A DNA stretch of 64,000 bases, from positions 992,001 to 1,056,000 of the forward strand of contig NZ_PDBS01000001.1 in the NCBI RefSeq assembly GCF_002572525.1. Direction: 5' to 3'. Below are positions 2,467 to 28,778 of the stretch, in pieces. The translations under genes were made by a program, and so were the position numbers. This DNA is from Natrinema sp. CBA1119. GTDB taxonomy: Archaea; Halobacteriota; Halobacteria; Halobacteriales; Natrialbaceae. The first letter of the stretch is position 1; each line of letters starts with the position of its first letter. Below the pieces are notes generated by a model. It did not search any database and had not been told where the DNA came from. It saw only the letters and a program-made list of their open reading frames with translations.

Positions 2467-4182
2467 TTAGAAGTACAGCGCGTTGATCCGGTCCGCCGTC
2501 CGGATCGCCAGCGCCTGTCCGGTGTTCGTCGGGTTCGGCCCGCCGAGGCCGTTCGCGAGCGCGCTGTGGTCGCCGACGAACAGCCGATCGACGTCGTCTG
2601 CCTCGCAGTTCTCGTCGACGACTTTCCCCATCCGCATCGAACTCTGCATGTGCAACAACAGCGGCGGCGCGTCGGCGCGGTGGACGTGCTCGGCGCCGGC
2701 GGCCTGCAGGAGTTCCGCGGCGGTCGTCGCGAGCCGATCGCGCTTCGCGGAGTCGTCGGGATGGGGATCCCACGAGACGTCGGCGACCGGTCCGTGCTCG
2801 TCGACGGTCTCCTCGTCGACCGAGACGCCGTTTTCCTGCCGCGGCAGGTCGTCGGTGAGGATCAAGATTGCCAGCGTCCGCCGGTAGTCGGCCATCCGTC
2901 GTTTGAGCTCCTCGCCGGCGAGCCGGCCGCGGCTATCCCACGGCGCGTCCGGTTCGACGTCGGCGTCGAAGGCGTAACCCGCCCGACTGAACGAGTAGCT
3001 CTGGAAGGCGGCGATTCCCGGCGTCCCGCCGACCATCTCGAAGCAGCCGACCCCCGGCTCGTCGTACCGCGCGGCCGCGTTGTGGCCGACGTAGGGATCG
3101 ATCGTCCGCTGCCCGGTCAGTTCCTCGAGCGTGTCGCTGTCGAAGGAACCGACGACGAAGTCGAACCAGTGTGTGGTCAGTCCCGCGCCGACCCAGCCGT
3201 TGTCCGGCAGGCCGGAGTTGAGCCACAACCGCGGGGTCTCGATGCAGCCGGCGGCCATCACGACCGCGTCCGCGTCGATCGAGCCGGTCTCGCCGGACCA
3301 CGTGTCGCGGTACTCGACGCCGATCGCTTCGAGACTCCCCGCGAACGACTGCGTTCGCACGTTCGTAACGAACGTGTTGGGTCGGATCGTCACGTTGCTC
3401 GTCTCGAGCGCGCGGGGAACGAAACTCACGTTGCTCGATTTCCGGGATTTCTCCGCGACCGGCGCCTCGAGCGGCGTGGGCGCGCCCTGATAGTGGTCGC
3501 CGGCAAGGGTATCGCCCTCGACGTGGGGGTAGGTGAACGGCCCGTCGTAGTCGGGGTCGCGGAGCCTCTCGTCCGGCTGGGAGACGGCGTTTGGCTGCGG
3601 TCGGTAGCCCGCTTCCGTGACGTTCAACTGGTCGAGGAGGTCGTGACCCGCTTCCTTCGCACCTTCGAAGAACACCGCCTCCTTCGCGGTCGTCGGCGCC
3701 GGGTGGACGTCACAGATCTCCTCGTTCACCTGGTAGTAGGGCACCAGTTCCTCGTAGTCGATCGGCCAGTGGTCCTGCGCTCGGAACGCGAAGGGGTACG
3801 CCCGCGGGTGGTTGCCGAAGTAATGCAGCGTCGTCCCGCCGACGCCGGCGAGCTGGGAGATGTACATGGGCCGGTCCGTCGATCGGTCCCACGCCGATCG
3901 GTCGCGATCCGCGGGACCGAACCGGAACTTCCCGCCGTTGGAGTCGTTCGTCGCGTTCTCGCGTCGATCGAGTTGCTCGTCCATCAGCGGGCCGCTCAGA
4001 TCGGCGGGGTCCGAACTCGCCGTACCGCCGGACTCGTCGTGCGGGTTCTGCCAATTCTCGTTGCCGTGCCACGGCCCCGCCTCGAGAACGAGAACGTCGA
4101 TATCGTGCTGGCCGAGCCGCCAGGCCAGTGCCGGTCCGTCGCCGCCCGCGCCGATGACGATGACGTCTGGATCGTGTATCAT
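2467..4182 (-). CDS. GMC-type FAD-dependent oxidoreductase
   Basis: This 571-residue flavoprotein is of the glucose-methanol-choline class, which oxidises alcohol groups of sugars or polyols. The FAD-binding motif is at the N-terminus (VIVIGAGGDGPALAWRLGQ). A GVGGTTLHYFGN segment near residue 115 matches the FAD-contacting loop. The C-terminus has the active-site His region (LLLHMQSSMRMG) and the NPTNTGQALAIRTADRI signature. The next gene upstream (4193-5224) encodes a Tat-exported subunit like subunit 3 of gluconate 2-dehydrogenase, 10 bases away, so the two probably form a membrane-associated dehydrogenase whose large subunit is exported with its partner. The substrate cannot be read from sequence. 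Confidence 0.9.
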   Translation of the reverse strand: MIHDPDVIVIGAGGDGPALAWRLGQHDIDVLVLEAGPWHGNENWQNPHDESGGTASSDPADLSGPLMDEQLDRRENATNDSNGGKFRFGPADRDRSAWDRSTDRPMYISQLAGVGGTTLHYFGNHPRAYPFAFRAQDHWPIDYEELVPYYQVNEEICDVHPAPTTAKEAVFFEGAKEAGHDLLDQLNVTEAGYRPQPNAVSQPDERLRDPDYDGPFTYPHVEGDTLAGDHYQGAPTPLEAPVAEKSRKSSNVSFVPRALETSNVTIRPNTFVTNVRTQSFAGSLEAIGVEYRDTWSGETGSIDADAVVMAAGCIETPRLWLNSGLPDNGWVGAGLTTHWFDFVVGSFDSDTLEELTGQRTIDPYVGHNAAARYDEPGVGCFEMVGGTPGIAAFQSYSFSRAGYAFDADVEPDAPWDSRGRLAGEELKRRMADYRRTLAILILTDDLPRQENGVSVDEETVDEHGPVADVSWDPHPDDSAKRDRLATTAAELLQAAGAEHVHRADAPPLLLHMQSSMRMGKVVDENCEADDVDRLFVGDHSALANGLGGPNPTNTGQALAIRTADRINALYF

Positions 4183-15338: not shown

Positions 15339-16874
15339 TTAGCTACTGAGGGGGTTGAGTCGATCGAACGTTTGGAGGGTGGCGTACTCCTCCCAGCCGC
15401 CGTAGCGGTCCTCGAACGAACCGCGCGGGACGCTGAGCACCACGACGAGTGCGGCGGCGGCGACGGCATTGATCGCGGCGAGCGTCGGGACGCCGTCGAA
15501 CAGCCAGGGGGCGACGGCAACCCACGCGGCCAGCGGGACGTTCAGGAACCGAATCGCGCGCGCGGGCTCGGCGGTCGCGATCACGGTGAAGGAGACGATC
15601 AGCGAGCCGACCAGGTGGCTGCTATCGGCCATGAGCCCCGTCGTCCCGAAGACGGTCGGCGAGAGCATGAGCCAGACGCCGAGCGCCATCGCGCCCAGCA
15701 GGGTCCACGGAATCGAGACGCCCCAGAACGGCTCGCTAACCGGCGAGTCGCCGATCGGTCGCTCCGAGGTCATGTCGACGCCCTCCTCGTCCTCGGAGAT
15801 CGTCCCGCCCATCCAGAAGGCCGTCCAGAGGCTGTCGCCCTGGCGCATCAGCCGGACGACGTACTGTCCCATGGCGACGACCTCGTCGACGGTCAGCGAG
15901 ATCATCCAGAGCATGCCAAAGGCCGAGAGGAGGCAGAGCGTACACCACGTCCCGACCATGATCGGCTGCATGATGACCAACAGTACCTGCGCGAAGCCCA
16001 GCGGGATGACGACGACGCCGAAGAAGGCGACCATCCACGGCATCGTCCGCCAGCGCCGGCGGTCGCCCATGAATCCCATCAGGGCCTCGACCGAGTAAGC
16101 GACCGCGCCGAGGCCGGCGTCCGAGACGGGGAACGCCTCCGAGACACGCGACGTCAGTATCGCCTGGGTTCCCGGATCGTACAGCGGGTCCCAGACACTC
16201 TCGATGTAGCCCAGTTGGAAGGCGGCCATGTACCACGAGGCGAAGAAGCCGAAGATCCCGAGCGCGATCAGCGGCGCGCGCTGGGCCCCCGTCGAGGGGT
16301 TGTACGACCAGCCCGGCGGGACGGTCGGCCCGTCCATCTCCGAGCGCATCACGATCAGTACCGAGAACGTGATCACCATGGTCCCCACGAGCGCGTTGTT
16401 GGCGTAGGCGGCGGCCGTCGGCGCCCAGAACGCGATCGGTGCGAACACCAGCCAGAGGCCCACGAATCCGTTGGCGTAGTTGGCGTAGCCGTTCTCGCGG
16501 TAGATCGTGATCCCCGCGAGTGTGATCAGGACGAGTCCGCTGACGATGCCGTTCCAGACCATCAGCGCGCTCCCATAGTCCAGTGCCGGCGTACTCGCGA
16601 GGAGCCAGATCCCGAGCGAGATGACGGCGTACTGGGGCCAGATCTCCTCCGTCGGATGTTTGAGCATCATGTCACCCGGCCGCATCGAGTCGCCGTCGTC
16701 CCCGTCTCCACTGGGATCGCCGTTTCCGTCTCCGCCGCCGTGTCCGTTTCCGTTCCCACCACCGCCGTCGGCCCGCGAACGTCGGTCTCGAGCGTCGGTC
16801 GTGACGGCGGTGTGTTCGTCGGTCGTGACGGCGGTGTGTTCGTCAGTCGCGTCGTGAGTGCTATCTTCTGTCAT
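15339..16874 (-). CDS. SPW-repeat protein fused to a vitamin K epoxide reductase-like domain
   Basis: This 511-residue polytopic membrane protein starts with a low-complexity N-terminus that includes a DEHTAVTT duplication. The N-terminal third has an SPW-type motif (WLLASTPALDYGS...WNGIVSG). The middle third resembles the VKOR four-helix bundle, with the redox motif TWCTLCLLSAFGM near residue 320. The C-terminal third is again SPW-like (GVWLMLSPTVFG and WLFDGVPTLAAINAVAAA). VKOR domains pass electrons between quinones and disulfide-forming partners. Whether this one oxidises exported proteins cannot be decided. Another SPW protein is at 18887-19252. Confidence 0.85.
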   Translation of the reverse strand: MTEDSTHDATDEHTAVTTDEHTAVTTDARDRRSRADGGGGNGNGHGGGDGNGDPSGDGDDGDSMRPGDMMLKHPTEEIWPQYAVISLGIWLLASTPALDYGSALMVWNGIVSGLVLITLAGITIYRENGYANYANGFVGLWLVFAPIAFWAPTAAAYANNALVGTMVITFSVLIVMRSEMDGPTVPPGWSYNPSTGAQRAPLIALGIFGFFASWYMAAFQLGYIESVWDPLYDPGTQAILTSRVSEAFPVSDAGLGAVAYSVEALMGFMGDRRRWRTMPWMVAFFGVVVIPLGFAQVLLVIMQPIMVGTWCTLCLLSAFGMLWMISLTVDEVVAMGQYVVRLMRQGDSLWTAFWMGGTISEDEEGVDMTSERPIGDSPVSEPFWGVSIPWTLLGAMALGVWLMLSPTVFGTTGLMADSSHLVGSLIVSFTVIATAEPARAIRFLNVPLAAWVAVAPWLFDGVPTLAAINAVAAAALVVVLSVPRGSFEDRYGGWEEYATLQTFDRLNPLSS

Positions 16875-16883
16875 CAGTATCTC

Positions 16884-18821
16884 TCACTCGATTTCGTTCG
16901 TTCCGCGGACGATCTCGCCGCTCGAGGCGACGTCCTCGAGCGACTCGTTACGGCCCAGGGGTGCCGGCGACGCTGCGGCGCTGGAACCCACGTCGCTCGA
17001 GCCGGTCGAATCGGCCAGCGAGAGCGCGCTGTTGAGCAGGCCGATGTGACTGTACGCCTGCGGGTAGTTACCCCGCTGTTCGCCGCTCTCGGGATCGACC
17101 GCCTCGGCCAATAGCCCGAGCGGACTGGCGTACTCGAGGACGGACTCGAAGCGATCGCGGGCCTCCTCGGTTCGCCCCGCGAGCGCGAGCGCGGTGACGA
17201 GCCAGAACGAACAGACGAAGAACGGGCTGTCCTCGCCGGGGAGCCCGTCCTCGCCCTCGTACCGGCGGACGAGGCCGTCGTCGGTCGCCAGCCGGTCCAG
17301 CGTCGCGTCGATCGTCCCCTGCACGCGATCGTCGTCGGCCGGGAGGAAGCCGACGACCGGGATCAGCAGGTTCGCCGCGTCGAGCGTGTCGCCGTCGCCG
17401 AACGATCGCACGAAGCTGTTCGCCCCCTCGCTGAACCCGCGCTCGAGGATCGCCTCGCGGACATCGTCTCGGGCCGCCCGCCAGCGCTCGATCGGAGCCT
17501 CGACGCCGTTGGCCGCCTCGGCAAGCCTGATGCCGCGGTCGAGCGCCGTCCAGCACATGACCTTCGAGTAGACGAATCCCTCGTGGTCGGTCCGCATCTC
17601 CCAGATACCGGCGTCGGGCTCGTCCCAGCCCTCGCAGACGTAGTCGACGAGGTCGCGCACCACCGGCCAGTCGCCGGACCGCATCGGCTCGCCGTACCGA
17701 ACGCTCTCGTAGATCGCGAGCACCAGCTCGCCGTAGATATCGAGCTGATGTTGGTTCCGAGCCGCGTTGCCGACGCGAACGGGAGCGGAGCCGCGGTATC
17801 CCTCGAGGTGGTCGAGGACGCGCTCCTCGAGGTCGCTCCCGCCGTGGAGGCCGTAGACCGGCGGCATCTCCGCCGGCTCGTGCCGGCTGCAGTGGTCGAG
17901 ACACAGCTCGAAGTAGGACCGGGCCTCCTCGAGATGGCCCAGTTCGGCCAGCACCCGGACGGTGAAGGCCGAGTCGCGGATCCAGTTGAAGCGGTAATCC
18001 CAGTTGCGGACGCCACCGACGTCTTCGGGCAGCGAGGTCGTCGGTGCCGCACACACTGCGCCCGTTTCTCGGTGAATCAGGAGTTTGAGAACGAGCGACG
18101 AGCGGACCGCGAAGTCGTGCCACTGACCGCCGACGGGACAGTCCGTCTCGTCACAGTCGTGGACCCACGACCGCCAGTAATCGACCGTCTCGGCGAGCGT
18201 CTCCCGGTGCCGCGACGGCTCGAGGGGGATCTCCTCGCCGTAGCCCAGCACCAGCCAGCGCGTCTCGCCGTCCTCGAGCGTCGCCGTCGCGCTCGCCCCG
18301 TGGCCGTCGCTCGCGGGCTCGAAGGGAAGACCGCTCGAGAGAACGGCTCGCTCGTCATCGCCGGTCGCGACGACGCCGTCAGTGGTCAGTTCGATCTCGG
18401 GTACGTCTCGTGCGTACGCAAAGCGGGGATCGAACTCGATCTCGACCTCGAGCGGGCCGTCCTCGCACTCGAGTTTGCGGTAGATCGCGGGCGGCCAGTC
18501 GTCGGGCCCGATCGCCCGGTCATCGGATCCAACCGCCTCCGGGACGGGCATGAAGTCCGTCACCGTTGCGCTCCCGCCGGCGGTCCGAAACGTCGTCTCG
18601 AGGACGTTCGTCCGGTCGCGGTAGCGCTGGACGGACTCGAACGATTGGGTCGGTCGGACGGCGAAGTGGCCGCCGCGGTCGGCGTCGAGCACGGCGGCGA
18701 AGACGCTCGGCGACTCGACGTGCGGGAACGGACACCAGTCGATCGAGCCGTCGCGACCGACGAGGGCAACCGTGTTCCCGTCGCCGATCGCGCCGTACTC
18801 CTCGAGGCGTTTGTACTGCAT
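16884..18821 (-). CDS. Glycoside hydrolase family 15 (glucoamylase/trehalase-like)
   Basis: This 645-residue enzyme has GH15 layout: an N-terminal beta-sandwich (IDWCPFPHVESPSVFAAVLD) and an (alpha/alpha)6 barrel. Signature motifs are NWDYRFNWIRDSAFT, GIWEMRTDHEGFVYSKVMCW (with a Glu at the catalytic acid position) and LLAEAVDPESGEQRGNYPQA (second Glu), matching cytosolic archaeal/bacterial glucoamylase-trehalase enzymes that hydrolyse alpha-glucosidic bonds. There is no signal peptide, so it is cytoplasmic. The true substrate (maltodextrin, trehalose or another) is not shown by sequence. Confidence 0.92.
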   Translation of the reverse strand: MQYKRLEEYGAIGDGNTVALVGRDGSIDWCPFPHVESPSVFAAVLDADRGGHFAVRPTQSFESVQRYRDRTNVLETTFRTAGGSATVTDFMPVPEAVGSDDRAIGPDDWPPAIYRKLECEDGPLEVEIEFDPRFAYARDVPEIELTTDGVVATGDDERAVLSSGLPFEPASDGHGASATATLEDGETRWLVLGYGEEIPLEPSRHRETLAETVDYWRSWVHDCDETDCPVGGQWHDFAVRSSLVLKLLIHRETGAVCAAPTTSLPEDVGGVRNWDYRFNWIRDSAFTVRVLAELGHLEEARSYFELCLDHCSRHEPAEMPPVYGLHGGSDLEERVLDHLEGYRGSAPVRVGNAARNQHQLDIYGELVLAIYESVRYGEPMRSGDWPVVRDLVDYVCEGWDEPDAGIWEMRTDHEGFVYSKVMCWTALDRGIRLAEAANGVEAPIERWRAARDDVREAILERGFSEGANSFVRSFGDGDTLDAANLLIPVVGFLPADDDRVQGTIDATLDRLATDDGLVRRYEGEDGLPGEDSPFFVCSFWLVTALALAGRTEEARDRFESVLEYASPLGLLAEAVDPESGEQRGNYPQAYSHIGLLNSALSLADSTGSSDVGSSAAASPAPLGRNESLEDVASSGEIVRGTNEIE

Positions 18822-18886
18822 GGGTATGTGGGTTCGATGGCGAATTGCCAGCGGACGGCACGTCCGTACTCGTCGGACGACCTTTC

Positions 18887-19252
18887 CTATTGGGCAGTCG
18901 CTCGAAGGGGGGCCGCGCTGCCGGCGACGTAGGCGTTATAGCCGGCGAAGCTCGCGACAACCGTCCCCGTCACGACGTCGTTCCAGAGCGCCGGCCCCTC
19001 GAGGCCGAAGACGAACGGCGCGACGACGAGCCAGCAGCCGAGGACCGCGACGAGCGCGGCACCCGTCTGACTCGTGGCTCGCCGTCTGGCCGCTCTGGTG
19101 TAGTTGTAGCCGGCGACGAGGACGATCGCCGTCCCGACGATGATGTCGTTCCAGCGATCGGCGGCCGGTGCACCGAAGACGAACGGTGCCGCGAGCAGCC
19201 AGCAGCCGAGGACGCTCGTGCCGGCGGCGGTCCACTTCGTCGTCAGGTCCAT
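18887..19252 (-). CDS. SPW-repeat membrane protein
   Basis: This 121-residue, four-helix membrane protein consists of two SPW-type repeats, GCWLLAAPFVFGAPAADRWND and GCWLVVAPFVFGLEGPALWND, about 57 residues apart, each followed by a second helix. The start MDLTTKW at 19252 precedes the first helix directly; the longer in-frame start adds a basic, non-haloarchaeal leader. The role of the family is unknown. The same repeat occurs in the VKOR fusion two genes downstream. Confidence 0.85.
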   Translation of the reverse strand: MDLTTKWTAAGTSVLGCWLLAAPFVFGAPAADRWNDIIVGTAIVLVAGYNYTRAARRRATSQTGAALVAVLGCWLVVAPFVFGLEGPALWNDVVTGTVVASFAGYNAYVAGSAAPLRATAQ

Positions 19253-19399
19253 GATCCGGGAGTTCCGTCGGGAGGGAGTGGTCCTCTCTCGCGGTCGCGA
19301 ATCGGGGTTCGGGCCGTCATACGGTCTGCTGTAACGATTCACCGGAGTAACCGCAGGACGATTCGCGGTTGCTCCGGAACTGACTGACAGCAGTCCGTC

Positions 19400-19753
19400 T
19401 CAGGCCGACGCCATGTTCCGGCAGGTCTCCGCACAGTCCCGGAGGACATCCGCACAGACCTGACAGTGCTCGGCGTCGTGTCGTTCGCACTCGTCTGCGC
19501 ACTCCTCGCAGGCGTCGGCGGTGATCGCGGCGATGTCCGAACTGTAGCCGGAGTTGCGAGCCATGAACCGAGCGTGCATGGCAGTCAGATCGGCGACGTC
19601 TCGGCAGAGTCGGAGACACTCCGCCATCTCCTCGCCCTCGCCGGCGCACTCGTCGGCACACCACTCACAGGCCTGTGCGCACTCGAAACAGCTGTCGATA
19701 CACTCCTGCATCTCCTCGTCCTCGCTGACGTGGTCGATCTGGGTCAGTGCCAT
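19400..19753 (-). CDS. Cys-rich four-helix bundle copper-binding protein (DUF326/Csp-like)
   Basis: This 117-residue protein starts MALTQIDHVSEDEE and contains 14 Cys, mostly spaced as CxxC or CxxxC (CFECAQACEWCADEC, CLRLC, CEECADEC, CQVC). That pattern matches the DUF326 four-helix bundle family, including copper storage proteins that bind many Cu(I) ions with inward-facing Cys. There is no signal peptide, so it is cytosolic. The longer start at 19840 gives a basic leader and is less likely. Copper binding is inferred from the family. Confidence 0.88.
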   Translation of the reverse strand: MALTQIDHVSEDEEMQECIDSCFECAQACEWCADECAGEGEEMAECLRLCRDVADLTAMHARFMARNSGYSSDIAAITADACEECADECERHDAEHCQVCADVLRDCAETCRNMASA

Positions 19754-20035
19754 TGCGATCGGTCGGTCGGCGACGATCGGCTTTGTTATCCACACCCCAC
19801 GACGGACCGACCGAACGGTGAGGCGCGGTACCCGCAGCAAGGACCGCGGGACGGCCGATCGGTGAGGACCGATTCATGAACGATTACCGCCGGACGGTAC
19901 GGGGTCCGTTCGCCGGCGAGTCGCCGGGGAAATCGCCGTTCGAGTCCGTAACTCGTGGGGAGTCGCGGCCCGCGTCGTCGCACCGATGAAAGCCCATGCC
20001 ACAGTTTAACGACAGCCGGTGCCGTAGCCCGCGAC

Positions 20036-25344: not shown

Positions 25345-27909
25345 TCACATCGAACGCGCGGAGTTACAGACGACCAGCGCGCTGCTCGCGGCCATCGCGA
25401 CGGCGGCGAACAGCGGGTTCAGGAGGCCGGCGACCGCCAGCGGGATCGCGACCGCGTTGTAGGCGAAGGCCCAGCCGAGGTTCTGGCGGATCCGCCGATG
25501 GGTGCTCGTCGCGATGTCGAACGTCTCCGCGACGGCCGTGAGATCGTCGCCGACGATCACCGCGTCGGCCGCGTCGGTCGCGAGCCGGGTCCCGCCGCCC
25601 ATCGCGATCCCGACATCTGCGGCGGCCAGCGCGGGCGCGTCGTTGCTCCCGTCGCCGACCATCGCGACCGTTCCTCGAGCCCGAAGCCGGTCGACCGTTT
25701 CGGCCTTCGCTTCCGGCGGCACGCCGGCGAAGACCTCGTCGACGCCCTCGAGCGAGCGGAAGGCCTCGGTCGCCGGCCCCTCGTCACCGGTGAGGACGAC
25801 GACCTCGCGCCCGTCGGCGAGCGTCTCGAGCGCGTCGTCCAGTTCCTCGCGGGGCGAGTCCCCGACGACGATCAGCCCGCGAGCCCGATCGTCCCAGCCG
25901 ACGACGACGGGAACGCGACCGGCCGCGCGAGCGTCGTCGATCCGCGGCTCGAGGGCGTCGGGAACCGCGAGCCCGCGCTCCCGGAGGAAGTCGGGGTGGC
26001 CGACGACGACGCGCTCGCCGTCGACGAGGCCGCTGACGCCGCGGTCGGCGTGCTCGAATTCCTCGACGGCGCTGTTCGCGACGGTGTCGCTCGCCGCGCG
26101 GTCGGCCGCGGCGTCGGCCACGGCTTGCGCGATCGGATGCTCGGAGAGCGCTTCGACCGCGCCGGCGCGCCGGAGCAGTTCGTCGGCGTTCCGGTCACTC
26201 ACACCTCCGTTGCCGCCGTCGGTCGCGCGAACGCCCTCGTCATCATCGTCGATCGCGTGAGCCCCTCCGTCGCCGTCGTCGACGGTGTGAACGCTCTCGA
26301 CGGCCATCGTCCCCGTCGTGAGCGTTCCCGTCTTGTCGAGGACGACCACGTCGATGTCTGGCGCGTCCTCGAAGATCGTCTCCGCGGCGACGACGATACC
26401 CCGCTCGGCGGCGGTCTGAACGCCCGCGGCGATCGCCAGCGGGGTCGCGAGCCCGAGCGCGCACGGACAGGAGACGATCACGACCGTCAGCCCGAGCAAC
26501 AATGCAGTCGACGCGCTCGAGCCGGTCGCGAGCGAGACGGCGGCCGTCCCGACGGCGAGGACGACCACCAGCGGAACGAAGACGGTCGCGAGTTTGTCAG
26601 CGAGCCGCTGGACGCCCGGCCGCGAACTCTGAATCGACCAGAGCAGGGAGACGAGCCGATCGAGAGTGCTCTCGGCCTCGTCGCCGACCGCGATGACGAT
26701 CGGGGCGTCGGTGACGACGGTGCCGCCGCGGACGAAATCACCCGCACGCTTCCCGACGGGCAGGGATTCGCCGGTGATCAGCGACTCGTCGACGGCGGCG
26801 GATCCCTCTCGGATCTCGCCGTCGAGGGGAACCCGCTCGCCGGGTCGGACGAGGAGCCGGTCGCCGGGCTCGATGGCCTCGAGCGGGACGGTCTCGCCGC
26901 TCTCGAGGCGGGCCTCGTCGACCTGCTGCTCGGTCAGTTCGGCGAGCAGTCCGGTCGCGCGGCGCTTGACCGACGTCTCGTAGTGGGTGCCCGCGGTGAC
27001 GACGAGGACGATTGCGACGGTGACATCGAAGTAGAGGTGGCTGTGACCGAGCAGTACGGCGACTGCGCTGTAGCCGTACGAGCCGAGCGCGGCCGTCGCC
27101 ACGAGCAGGTCCATGTTCGGCCGACCCGCCCGGAGGCTGACGAACGCGCCCCGGAGGATCGGATAGCCGGTGTAGAAGAGGATGAACGACGTGAACAGCC
27201 AGATGTTCGCCGAGAGAAAGGCGGTCTCGTAGCCGCCGAAGTCGGCGACCGGCTCGAGGCCGAAGTAGGTCGGGTAGAGGAACAGGACGTACCACACCAT
27301 GACCATCATCCCGAAGAAGCCGCCCAGCAAGAGCGGGGCGAGGCCGTCGTCGGCTCCCGCGTCACCGTCGGCGGCCGATCGATCGGCCGCGGTGTAGCCG
27401 TAGCCGGAGACGAGATCGGGAAGGTCGTCGGCTGCGAGCCGGTCGGGATCGTAGACGAGCCGGATCGTGTCCGTCGCGTAGCTCGCCGTCGCGCCGAGAA
27501 CACCCGGTTCGCGCTCGGCGGTCGTCTCGAGGAAGGCCTCGCACGTCGAGCAGTGCATGCCATCGACCGCGAGGAAGGCGTCCTCGCCGTCGAGGTCGTC
27601 GAGATTGCGGTCGCGATCGCGGTCGTCCCCGACCCGGTCTCGCTGGTCGAGCCTCGATTGCACCGCCGACTCGTCCGGTGCATCGTCCGCTCGCTCGAGG
27701 GTTCGGTGGACCTCGAGACAGCCCCGACAGCAAAAGGTTCCGTTCACGTCGGAGGCAACGATCGGCTCCGCGGGAGTCGGCAGGTCACAGAGGTCGCAGG
27801 TGTCGGTGTCAGCGTCGGTACCGGCGCTCGGTTCGCCGGCCGCGCTCGAGCCGTCGGTCTCCGTTGTGGATCCGGACGAGCGCTCGGTCGGCGGTGAGTC
27901 CTGTGCCAT
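25345..27909 (-). CDS. Copper-translocating P-type ATPase (CcoI/CopA-like)
   Basis: This 854-residue P1B-type ATPase moves Cu(I) across the membrane. The N-terminal metal-binding region (residues 38-64) carries Cys in CDLC and CCRGC; an HMA domain follows, with GMHCSTC at 118-123. The membrane transport motif CPC is at 481-483. ATPase motifs are TGES at 379-382, DKTGT at 525-529 and GDGSNDAP in the hinge region. The start is the ATG at 27909; longer frames through 28608 are antisense to the next gene. It lies beside a SafE-like gene and the ba3 oxidase operon, the arrangement of CcoI-type pumps that deliver copper to oxidases. That role is inferred. Confidence 0.93.
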   Translation of the reverse strand: MAQDSPPTERSSGSTTETDGSSAAGEPSAGTDADTDTCDLCDLPTPAEPIVASDVNGTFCCRGCLEVHRTLERADDAPDESAVQSRLDQRDRVGDDRDRDRNLDDLDGEDAFLAVDGMHCSTCEAFLETTAEREPGVLGATASYATDTIRLVYDPDRLAADDLPDLVSGYGYTAADRSAADGDAGADDGLAPLLLGGFFGMMVMVWYVLFLYPTYFGLEPVADFGGYETAFLSANIWLFTSFILFYTGYPILRGAFVSLRAGRPNMDLLVATAALGSYGYSAVAVLLGHSHLYFDVTVAIVLVVTAGTHYETSVKRRATGLLAELTEQQVDEARLESGETVPLEAIEPGDRLLVRPGERVPLDGEIREGSAAVDESLITGESLPVGKRAGDFVRGGTVVTDAPIVIAVGDEAESTLDRLVSLLWSIQSSRPGVQRLADKLATVFVPLVVVLAVGTAAVSLATGSSASTALLLGLTVVIVSCPCALGLATPLAIAAGVQTAAERGIVVAAETIFEDAPDIDVVVLDKTGTLTTGTMAVESVHTVDDGDGGAHAIDDDDEGVRATDGGNGGVSDRNADELLRRAGAVEALSEHPIAQAVADAAADRAASDTVANSAVEEFEHADRGVSGLVDGERVVVGHPDFLRERGLAVPDALEPRIDDARAAGRVPVVVGWDDRARGLIVVGDSPREELDDALETLADGREVVVLTGDEGPATEAFRSLEGVDEVFAGVPPEAKAETVDRLRARGTVAMVGDGSNDAPALAAADVGIAMGGGTRLATDAADAVIVGDDLTAVAETFDIATSTHRRIRQNLGWAFAYNAVAIPLAVAGLLNPLFAAVAMAASSALVVCNSARSM

Positions 27910-27911
27910 CG

Positions 27912-28778
27912 TTAGAACAGTGGGGTGTACGGCAGCGGCAGGTGCGGGAGGTGGATTCCGTACAGCATCAGCCCGTGCGAGAGGGGGATGTAGCCGAGAA
28001 CGATGAACGCTGCGCCCAGGCCGCGGTGGAGCCGAACGCGCGTCTCGGCGCCGATCGTGGTCATGACGGTGCCGTAGGCGAACAGCGTAGGGATCGTCCC
28101 GAGTCCGAGGACGCCCAGCGAGAGTGCTCCGCGCGTCGGCGAGCCGAGCGAGAACGCGTAGAGGTAGGCCGGGTAGATGATCGGACACGGCATGAGCCCG
28201 TGGACCGCGCCGAGCGCCACGATCCCCGGCGACGTCGCGAGTCGATCGACCCGACTCGAGAGCAGCCCCGAGAGGCGGCGGAACAGCGCGCCGACGACGG
28301 GGAGGTCGTGGCCGGGGACGGCAGTCCGCCCGCGCACGTAGTAGAGCCCGCTCGCGATGATCGCGATTCCGACGAGGATCCCCGTCGCGCCCCTGACGCC
28401 ATCGCCGACCGCGGCGACGGCCTCGCTCGAGGCGATCGTGACCGCGCCCAGCAGGCCGAACAGGCCGCCGATGGCCGCGTAACTGGCCGTTCGACCGAGG
28501 TTGAACAGGGCGTGCTGGCGCACCTCGTAGCCAGTGAGCGTATCGTCGCGGCGCTTGTCGCTCGCGGCACCGATTCGGTCGGCGTAGGTCGTCACAAGCG
28601 GCCCGCACATTCCCAGGCAGTGTGCACCCGCGAGGAGTCCGACGACGAAGAGCACGAGCAGGTTTACACGCTCGAGTCCGGTCCCCGCTCCCGTGGCTTC
28701 GATCAGCGGAGGGACGGCCGAAAGCCGGCCGTATTCGAGTGGCGCGCCGAGTACGGGGGCGGTCGATGCGACTGACAT
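27912..28778 (-). CDS. SafE/TauE-family membrane protein (CcoH/Cu handling)
   Basis: This 288-residue protein has about six membrane helices and the family signature LLAGAHCLGMCGPLVTTYAD near residue 55, plus AVHGLMPCPIIYPAYLYA near residue 195. Cys in GAHCLGMCG and MPCP recur in sulfite exporter/cytochrome biogenesis proteins. It starts two bases upstream of the Cu ATPase (27909), so they are co-transcribed, matching oxidase copper-insertion clusters. The transported substrate is not certain. Confidence 0.88.
   Translation of the reverse strand: MSVASTAPVLGAPLEYGRLSAVPPLIEATGAGTGLERVNLLVLFVVGLLAGAHCLGMCGPLVTTYADRIGAASDKRRDDTLTGYEVRQHALFNLGRTASYAAIGGLFGLLGAVTIASSEAVAAVGDGVRGATGILVGIAIIASGLYYVRGRTAVPGHDLPVVGALFRRLSGLLSSRVDRLATSPGIVALGAVHGLMPCPIIYPAYLYAFSLGSPTRGALSLGVLGLGTIPTLFAYGTVMTTIGAETRVRLHRGLGAAFIVLGYIPLSHGLMLYGIHLPHLPLPYTPLF

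Follow-up and report, generated by a model that had tools for sequence, protein, structure and literature searches.

Does a protein with the fold of VKOR, set between two parts of the SPW type, still generate disulfides? The question is raised by a 64,000-nucleotide stretch of the genome of the haloarchaeon Natrinema sp. CBA1119 (contig NZ_PDBS01000001.1, positions 992,001 to 1,056,000; hereafter the window), which encodes such a fusion, SPW-VKOR. Bacterial VKORs usually have a thioredoxin-like partner, either fused or adjacent. None is encoded among the five genes of the run to which the fusion belongs, as the first-pass annotation of this DNA, made from the sequence alone, had noted. The answer toward which we lean, tentatively, is that SPW-VKOR is a copper-tolerance membrane protein built on a VKOR scaffold rather than a disulfide generator of the DsbA type. 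The two features at issue are the following:

15339-16874, minus strand: SPW-VKOR-SPW fusion, 511 amino acids
15891-16274, minus strand: VKOR domain of the fusion, residues 201-328, with the CxxC present and no loop cysteines

The placement of a VKOR domain between two SPW parts, proposed in the first-pass annotation, is borne out by Pfam, which identifies in the 511-residue open reading frame (ORF) two SPW stretches (whole-protein E = 9.7e-20, 71.3 bits against a cut-off of 31.5) and one VKOR domain (PF07884, residues 201-328, E = 1.4e-17, 64.5 bits against a cut-off of 27.5). An AlphaFold2 model (mean pLDDT 72.3, pTM 0.65, N-terminus of low confidence) was built on an alignment, A1, of 29 of the 39 sequences from the window and 38 related loci; the alignment omits near copies (L015, L017, L019, L020, and L022), rows that were truncated or odd (L046-L049), and L040, in which there is no CxxC. 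The VKOR part of the model consists of helices 196-220, 252-269, 279-307, and 312-344. The first-pass annotation had agreed in advance to give up its assignment should the CxxC fall outside a VKOR four-helix fold; in the model, C311 and C314 lie inside it, at the start of helix 312-344, that is, helix 4. The best structural alignment to a solved VKOR is that with 6wvb (Z 10.8, root-mean-square deviation 3.1 over 141 residues), followed by 6wv8 (Z 10.6) and 4nv5 (Z 9.0), values at which, being under ~13, a match between helical bundles can be due to chance. Foldseek with the fusion model returned no match at E ≤ 0.001, and in PDB sequence searches neither the fusion protein (E up to 10) nor the A1 profile (E up to 0.01) matched a VKOR. 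VKOR is nevertheless a sound reading of the fold, because the independent Pfam match agrees with the structural alignment.

The cysteines of this fold tell a different story from that of a working VKOR. In VKOR, two loop cysteines (C43/C51) hand electrons on to the active site (PMC7462613, in the passage on these residues). The CxxC of the fusion, WCTLC at residues 311-314, comprises the only two cysteines of the protein, and none of the 63 readable SPW-fused VKOR domains has a cysteine in the loop between helices 1 and 2 (of the 66 distinct fused domains in the comparison, L049, L055, and L056 were dropped for too little loop). When a wider stretch is considered, cysteines appear in 2 of 60 fused sequences, namely in helix 1 of L091 and, as an artefact of a truncated row, in L049. 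As a control, two or three loop cysteines were found in all 27 readable VKORs of Gemmatimonadota, taken from 29 new loci which were the best scoring rather than randomly drawn (L147 and L161 were unreadable); among all 35 controls read, 28 have at least two cysteines in the stretch and the seven without are haloarchaeal. Stand-alone haloarchaeal VKORs (L162, L163, L164, L166, L167, L168, and L172) carry CPFC without loop cysteines in seven of seven cases, and relay loss is therefore not unique to the fusion. One further archaeal stand-alone VKOR (L173) has two cysteines in the stretch, and a small second VKOR-like protein encoded just upstream of SPW-VKOR in Pontibacter silvestris (L034, 4530-5051) has no loop cysteines. 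As far as its sequence indicates, the fusion is a VKOR-fold protein and not a working relay VKOR, and it would not oxidise DsbA-like proteins via the normal VKOR relay.

The genome has disulfide machinery of a more familiar kind. A DsbB gene on contig 2 (Pfam DsbB E = 3.7e-15), with a CELC motif and a second cysteine pair, directly adjoins a gene for a DsbA-like protein with CPFC (Thioredoxin_4 E = 5e-23, DSBA E = 2.3e-13); Thioredoxin_4 matches occur at three places in the genome outside the gene run of the fusion, and SPW-VKOR is its only VKOR above the Pfam cut-off. Because the loop cysteines are missing and a DsbB/DsbA pair is present elsewhere in the genome, a canonical DsbA-oxidising VKOR was rejected as the best reading. 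For the same reasons, the view of the first-pass annotation that this is an ordinary VKOR merely without its partner is not supported.

What the fused proteins hold in common, besides the CxxC, is a set of methionines. At positions 266, 269, 278, 281, 321, and 324 of the VKOR domain, all six are Met in 56 of 63 full SPW-fused sequences, and each position is Met in at most 2 of 13 related VKORs without SPW; these were retrieved by a model built from the fused proteins and hence lean towards them. In many bacterial members, the first SPW is, in addition, joined to the VKOR part by a Met-rich linker, with at least two Met in 14 residues in 25 of 26 distinct linkers, a count limited to linkers matching the motif pattern. 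Pairs of Met suit Cu(I), as in other copper membrane proteins. Of the 56 sequences with all six Met, 53 also have the CxxC; the remaining three (L054, L061, and L092), grouped at 100/99 in the tree, have SxxA instead, that is, they have lost both cysteines and kept the methionines. No other single observation weighs as heavily against plain thiol chemistry as this sub-clade, which likewise argues against an indispensable role of the CxxC as a copper ligand. In L054, the gene adjoins those for CopC, CopD, and a four-helix copper protein.

Among the alternatives, the one that survives best, and which we nonetheless consider unlikely, is a VKOR operating with a single cysteine pair, in which a membrane quinone oxidises the CxxC and the CxxC in turn oxidises a protein or small thiol at the outer face without the loop relay. 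Consistent with this, the CxxC opens helix 4 as in VKOR and is kept in 60 of 64 SPW-fused sequences (the 29 of 29 in A1 overstates its conservation, because L040 was left out); the stand-alone haloarchaeal VKORs combine a CxxC with a cysteine-free loop; substitutions of human C51 are reported to cost only modest activity (PMC7462613); and genes for thiol proteins of the TlpA/DsbE type, SCO, CcdA, and twice of the DsbA family, are found within 10 kb in L051, L088, and L092. This is difficult to reconcile with the absence of both cysteines from L054, L061, and L092, the latter despite a nearby DsbA-family gene, and with a gene run in the window that has no thiol partner while the DsbB/DsbA pair lies elsewhere.

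The copper reading draws on genomic context as well. Of 32 DUF326 genes, which encode copper storage proteins (Csp), in 35 genomes, eight lie within 5 kb of SPW-VKOR, against 0.08 expected from random placement; these eight are from Halobacteria (four), Planctomycetota (three), and Bacteroidota (one), and not all are independent. On plasmids, names containing the words copper, Cu(I), multicopper, CopD, or heavy metal occur within 10 kb of 12 of 18 SPW-VKOR loci compared with 2 of 10 control stretches of ~21 kb chosen far off on the same plasmids (Fisher p = 0.046). On the ten plasmids bearing controls, 9 of 10 loci have such names (p = 0.005 against the controls), as do 3 of 8 loci on the others; we quote 12 of 18, because the ten plasmids were not randomly drawn. 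The link to copper genes above background is thus real, and moderate on plasmids.

Taken together, these data suggest a scheme in which the VKOR scaffold between two four-helix SPW modules would be the membrane component of a copper-tolerance module and would deal, at the membrane, with Cu(I) or with damage caused by copper. The outward-facing CxxC and above all the Met pairs would most likely be soft-metal sites taking up Cu(I); the side of the membrane is predicted from the arginine-rich loop 270-276 together with VKOR topology. Csp may cooperate with SPW-VKOR as a cytosolic copper store, and so may a cytoplasmic short-chain dehydrogenase/reductase (SDR), a neighbour in haloarchaea which in bacteria is often fused or encoded just upstream. 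The module as a whole is patchily distributed and probably mobile.

In the window, the fusion is the fourth of five consecutive genes on the minus strand, the other four being, in order:

19400-19840, minus strand: Csp3-like four-helix copper storage protein (DUF326), a 146-amino-acid ORF with 15 Cys, the first gene of the run
18887-19342, minus strand: free SPW protein, 151 amino acids, Pfam SPW E = 4.4e-19
16884-18821, minus strand: enzyme of glycoside hydrolase family 15 (GH15) with a trehalase-like N-terminal domain, 645 amino acids
14317-15336, minus strand: classical SDR oxidoreductase (PRK07109 type) with a hydrophobic C-terminal segment, starting 2 bases past the end of the VKOR gene

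By ORF coordinates, the gaps along the run are 57, 65, 9, and 2 bases, a spacing which suggests a single transcript, of which the Csp3-like and SDR genes are probably members. The first-pass annotation had recognized the three middle genes, including the small SPW protein two genes upstream of the fusion with GH15 in between, as confirmed by Pfam, and had missed the outer two; the interval that it singled out (15339-19252) contains the fusion and GH15 and stops 90 bases before the free SPW ORF is complete. The Csp3-like protein matches Bacillus subtilis Csp3 (5fig) at E = 1.5e-16 in a PDB sequence search and Pfam DUF326 with 31.8 bits (cut-off 20.4); its 34 bits to TIGR04401 are below the cut-off of 100. 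The GH15 enzyme matches Pfam GH15 (E = 3.8e-70) and TREH_N (E = 1.5e-20), and scores 378 bits with NCBIfam TreH1, below the cut-off of 820. The SDR matches Pfam adh_short (E = 1.1e-43) and NF005495 (488 bits, cut-off 264). PDB sequence searches gave no match for the SDR (E ≤ 1e-30) or the GH15 enzyme (E ≤ 1e-20). A distance of ~5.5 kb, occupied by other genes, separates the Csp gene from that for a P-type ATPase of the copper type with an SCPC motif (25345-28608, minus strand; TIGR01511 413 bits, cut-off 397). The closest relatives of the locus, at 76-86% identity, are from Natrinema, Haloterrigena, and Saliphagus.

Neighbouring genes were counted across 10 haloarchaeal genome loci (two from one species), 28 non-haloarchaeal genome loci with flanks of at most 6 kb, and 18 annotated plasmid loci, the counts for the latter including self-matches, since the queries were derived from plasmid loci. 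GH15, SDR, and Csp are present in 10, 9, and 5 of the 10 haloarchaeal loci, in 3, 3 (excluding a weak match in L025), and 5 of the 28 non-haloarchaeal loci, and in 7, 5, and 6 of the 18 plasmid loci, respectively. An epimerase-type SDR is fused or encoded just upstream in 9 of the 28 non-haloarchaeal loci, 12 of which have a metal-type match above 80 bits, and is fused or adjacent in 12 of the 18 plasmid loci. Pfam confirmed the fusion to SDR in L021, L030, L040, and L051; the closest matches of the L030 fused SDR are UDP-sugar epimerases and an SDR whose role is not stated, and the fused SDR of L040 has no PDB match (E ≤ 1e-10). SPW-VKOR, SDR, and GH15 are found together again on plasmids of Candidatus Manganitrophus and Stutzerimonas, and the set is joined by Csp in a Rhodopirellula locus (L035). 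A gene for a CBS-domain protein lies close to SPW-VKOR in three otherwise different plasmid loci (L089, L092, and L095).

The free SPW protein is a less constant companion. A relative is encoded just upstream of GH15 in 3 of the 10 haloarchaeal genome loci (L016, L018, and L019) and 1 of 4 haloarchaeal plasmid loci (L096), and a copy is present elsewhere in L020. Upstream of GH15 in L017, a 72-residue remnant (3819-4034) matches the end of the free SPW protein and suggests loss of the gene. Given this variability, the idea that the two SPW proteins form a fixed pair was rejected.

The prominence of SDR-type proteins, which are adjacent, just upstream, or fused in 38 of the 56 loci, invites another reading, namely a membrane- or quinone-linked redox unit in which the SDR carries out NAD(P)H chemistry in the cytoplasm and the VKOR fold provides a quinone site, a unit that would be of use under metal and oxidative stress in general. 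An NDUFA9-like protein adjoins SPW-VKOR in Haladaptatus and L093 has a mercury island, in line with this proposal; yet VKOR topology places the CxxC on the side opposite to NAD(P)H, and the fused SDR of L030 is not nearest to quinone enzymes, so that we regard such a unit as somewhat more doubtful than a one-pair VKOR. The weakest proposal, that SPW-VKOR is a passenger of plasmid stress islands with a function unrelated to copper (such as a part in envelope or sugar metabolism alongside the epimerase and GH15), could appeal to GH15 in all ten haloarchaeal genome loci, to the fused NDP-sugar-epimerase-like domain, and to L094 and L097, which are without copper or metal-resistance names, and is improbable in view of the Csp enrichment in genomes of Halobacteria, Planctomycetota, and Bacteroidota.

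Several observations also weigh against a role in copper tolerance itself. Retention of the CxxC in nearly all members fits redox work as well, and were it a needed copper ligand, it should not have been lost in L054, L061, and L092. The Met pairs could be packing residues, and the linker of L091 is without any Met. Within 10 kb, six of the 18 plasmid loci (L056, L088, L092-L094, and L097) lack any copper or heavy-metal name; L093 among them has mercury genes only, and in the case of L088 it is the control stretch that has copper genes, the near stretch having none by name. Of the non-haloarchaeal genome loci, within their short flanks, 10 of 28 are without any neighbour-query match and 16 of 28 without a metal-type match above 80 bits. 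The GH15 enzyme and the SDR have no obvious role in copper tolerance. Finally, the chance figures overstate independence, because plasmids are rich in metal genes and the loci are related.

How widespread is the fusion? When 84,980 species, each represented by one genome, were scanned with a pattern, a survey of the kind that the first-pass annotation had suggested, 38 distinct loci with SPW-VKOR relatives were recovered, and 139 of 72,556 plasmid records contain them. Occurrence is patchy, with 5 of 294 genomes in the phylum of the window and 2 of 299 in that of another member, G017 (the genome of the window and G017 included). In a tree of 109 VKOR domains, with a midpoint root, several long branches, and bootstrap values that had not fully settled, all 62 SPW-fused rows fall on one side of a single branch (96/94; 97% of bootstrap trees), and the haloarchaeal rows group together (100/98) among bacterial ones. 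The SPW-VKOR architecture is not a chance occurrence, and its patchy distribution fits horizontal spread. A fuller history, which we put forward with less confidence than the copper role alone, would be that the fold of a disulfide enzyme became a Cu(I)-handling membrane protein by losing the relay and fixing six Met, one sub-clade even dispensing with the CxxC, and that the module, accompanied by Csp, SDR, and GH15 or else by an epimerase fusion, spread between Bacteria and Halobacteria.

Public records label these proteins ‘vitamin K epoxide reductase family protein’, ‘SPW repeat protein’, or ‘NAD-dependent epimerase/dehydratase family protein’. In the literature searched, the phrase ‘SPW repeat’ and a function for SPW were not found, and searches pairing VKOR with copper terms yielded no description of the SPW-VKOR family; a plasmid VKOR without SPW is named for Sulfobacillus in a passage of PMC6803676. 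The domains themselves are known. Within the scope of these searches, there is no description of the relay loss, of the Met set, or of the copper context. If the copper reading is true, the label that assigns this widespread protein to the vitamin K epoxide reductase family is misleading, mobile copper tolerance gains a new component, and the uncharacterised SPW domain is placed for the first time in a testable setting. The sub-clade that has lost the CxxC and kept the Met provides a natural test of which residues matter.

SPW-VKOR was compared with four known systems. With DsbB (PF02600) it shares the character of a membrane CxxC protein of the kind involved in disulfide generation; unlike DsbB, it has no second cysteine pair, and a DsbB proper is encoded in this genome next to a DsbA-like protein. 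The Csp copper storage proteins are represented in the window by the upstream gene, a clear Csp3 relative. An SPW module of the model also aligns with a Csp bundle (6zif; Z 11.1, root-mean-square deviation 2.9 over 100 residues, 4% identity), a Z within the range of unrelated bundles that possibly reflects a common four-helix arrangement, and SPW as a Csp relative was accordingly set aside as resemblance only. The SPW repeat domain (PF03779) is present above cut-off both in the fusion, as two stretches, and in the free protein. With the VKOR family (PF07884), including the human and Synechococcus VKORs, the fusion shares the Pfam match, the four-helix fold, and a CxxC opening helix 4; the likeness in fold extends over residues ~182-342, with Z values of 8.1-10.8 for seven 6wv* entries, 4nv5, and 4nv6. 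Unlike those proteins, it lacks the loop cysteines and a thioredoxin-like domain or neighbour, and has SPW flanks and a conserved set of methionines.

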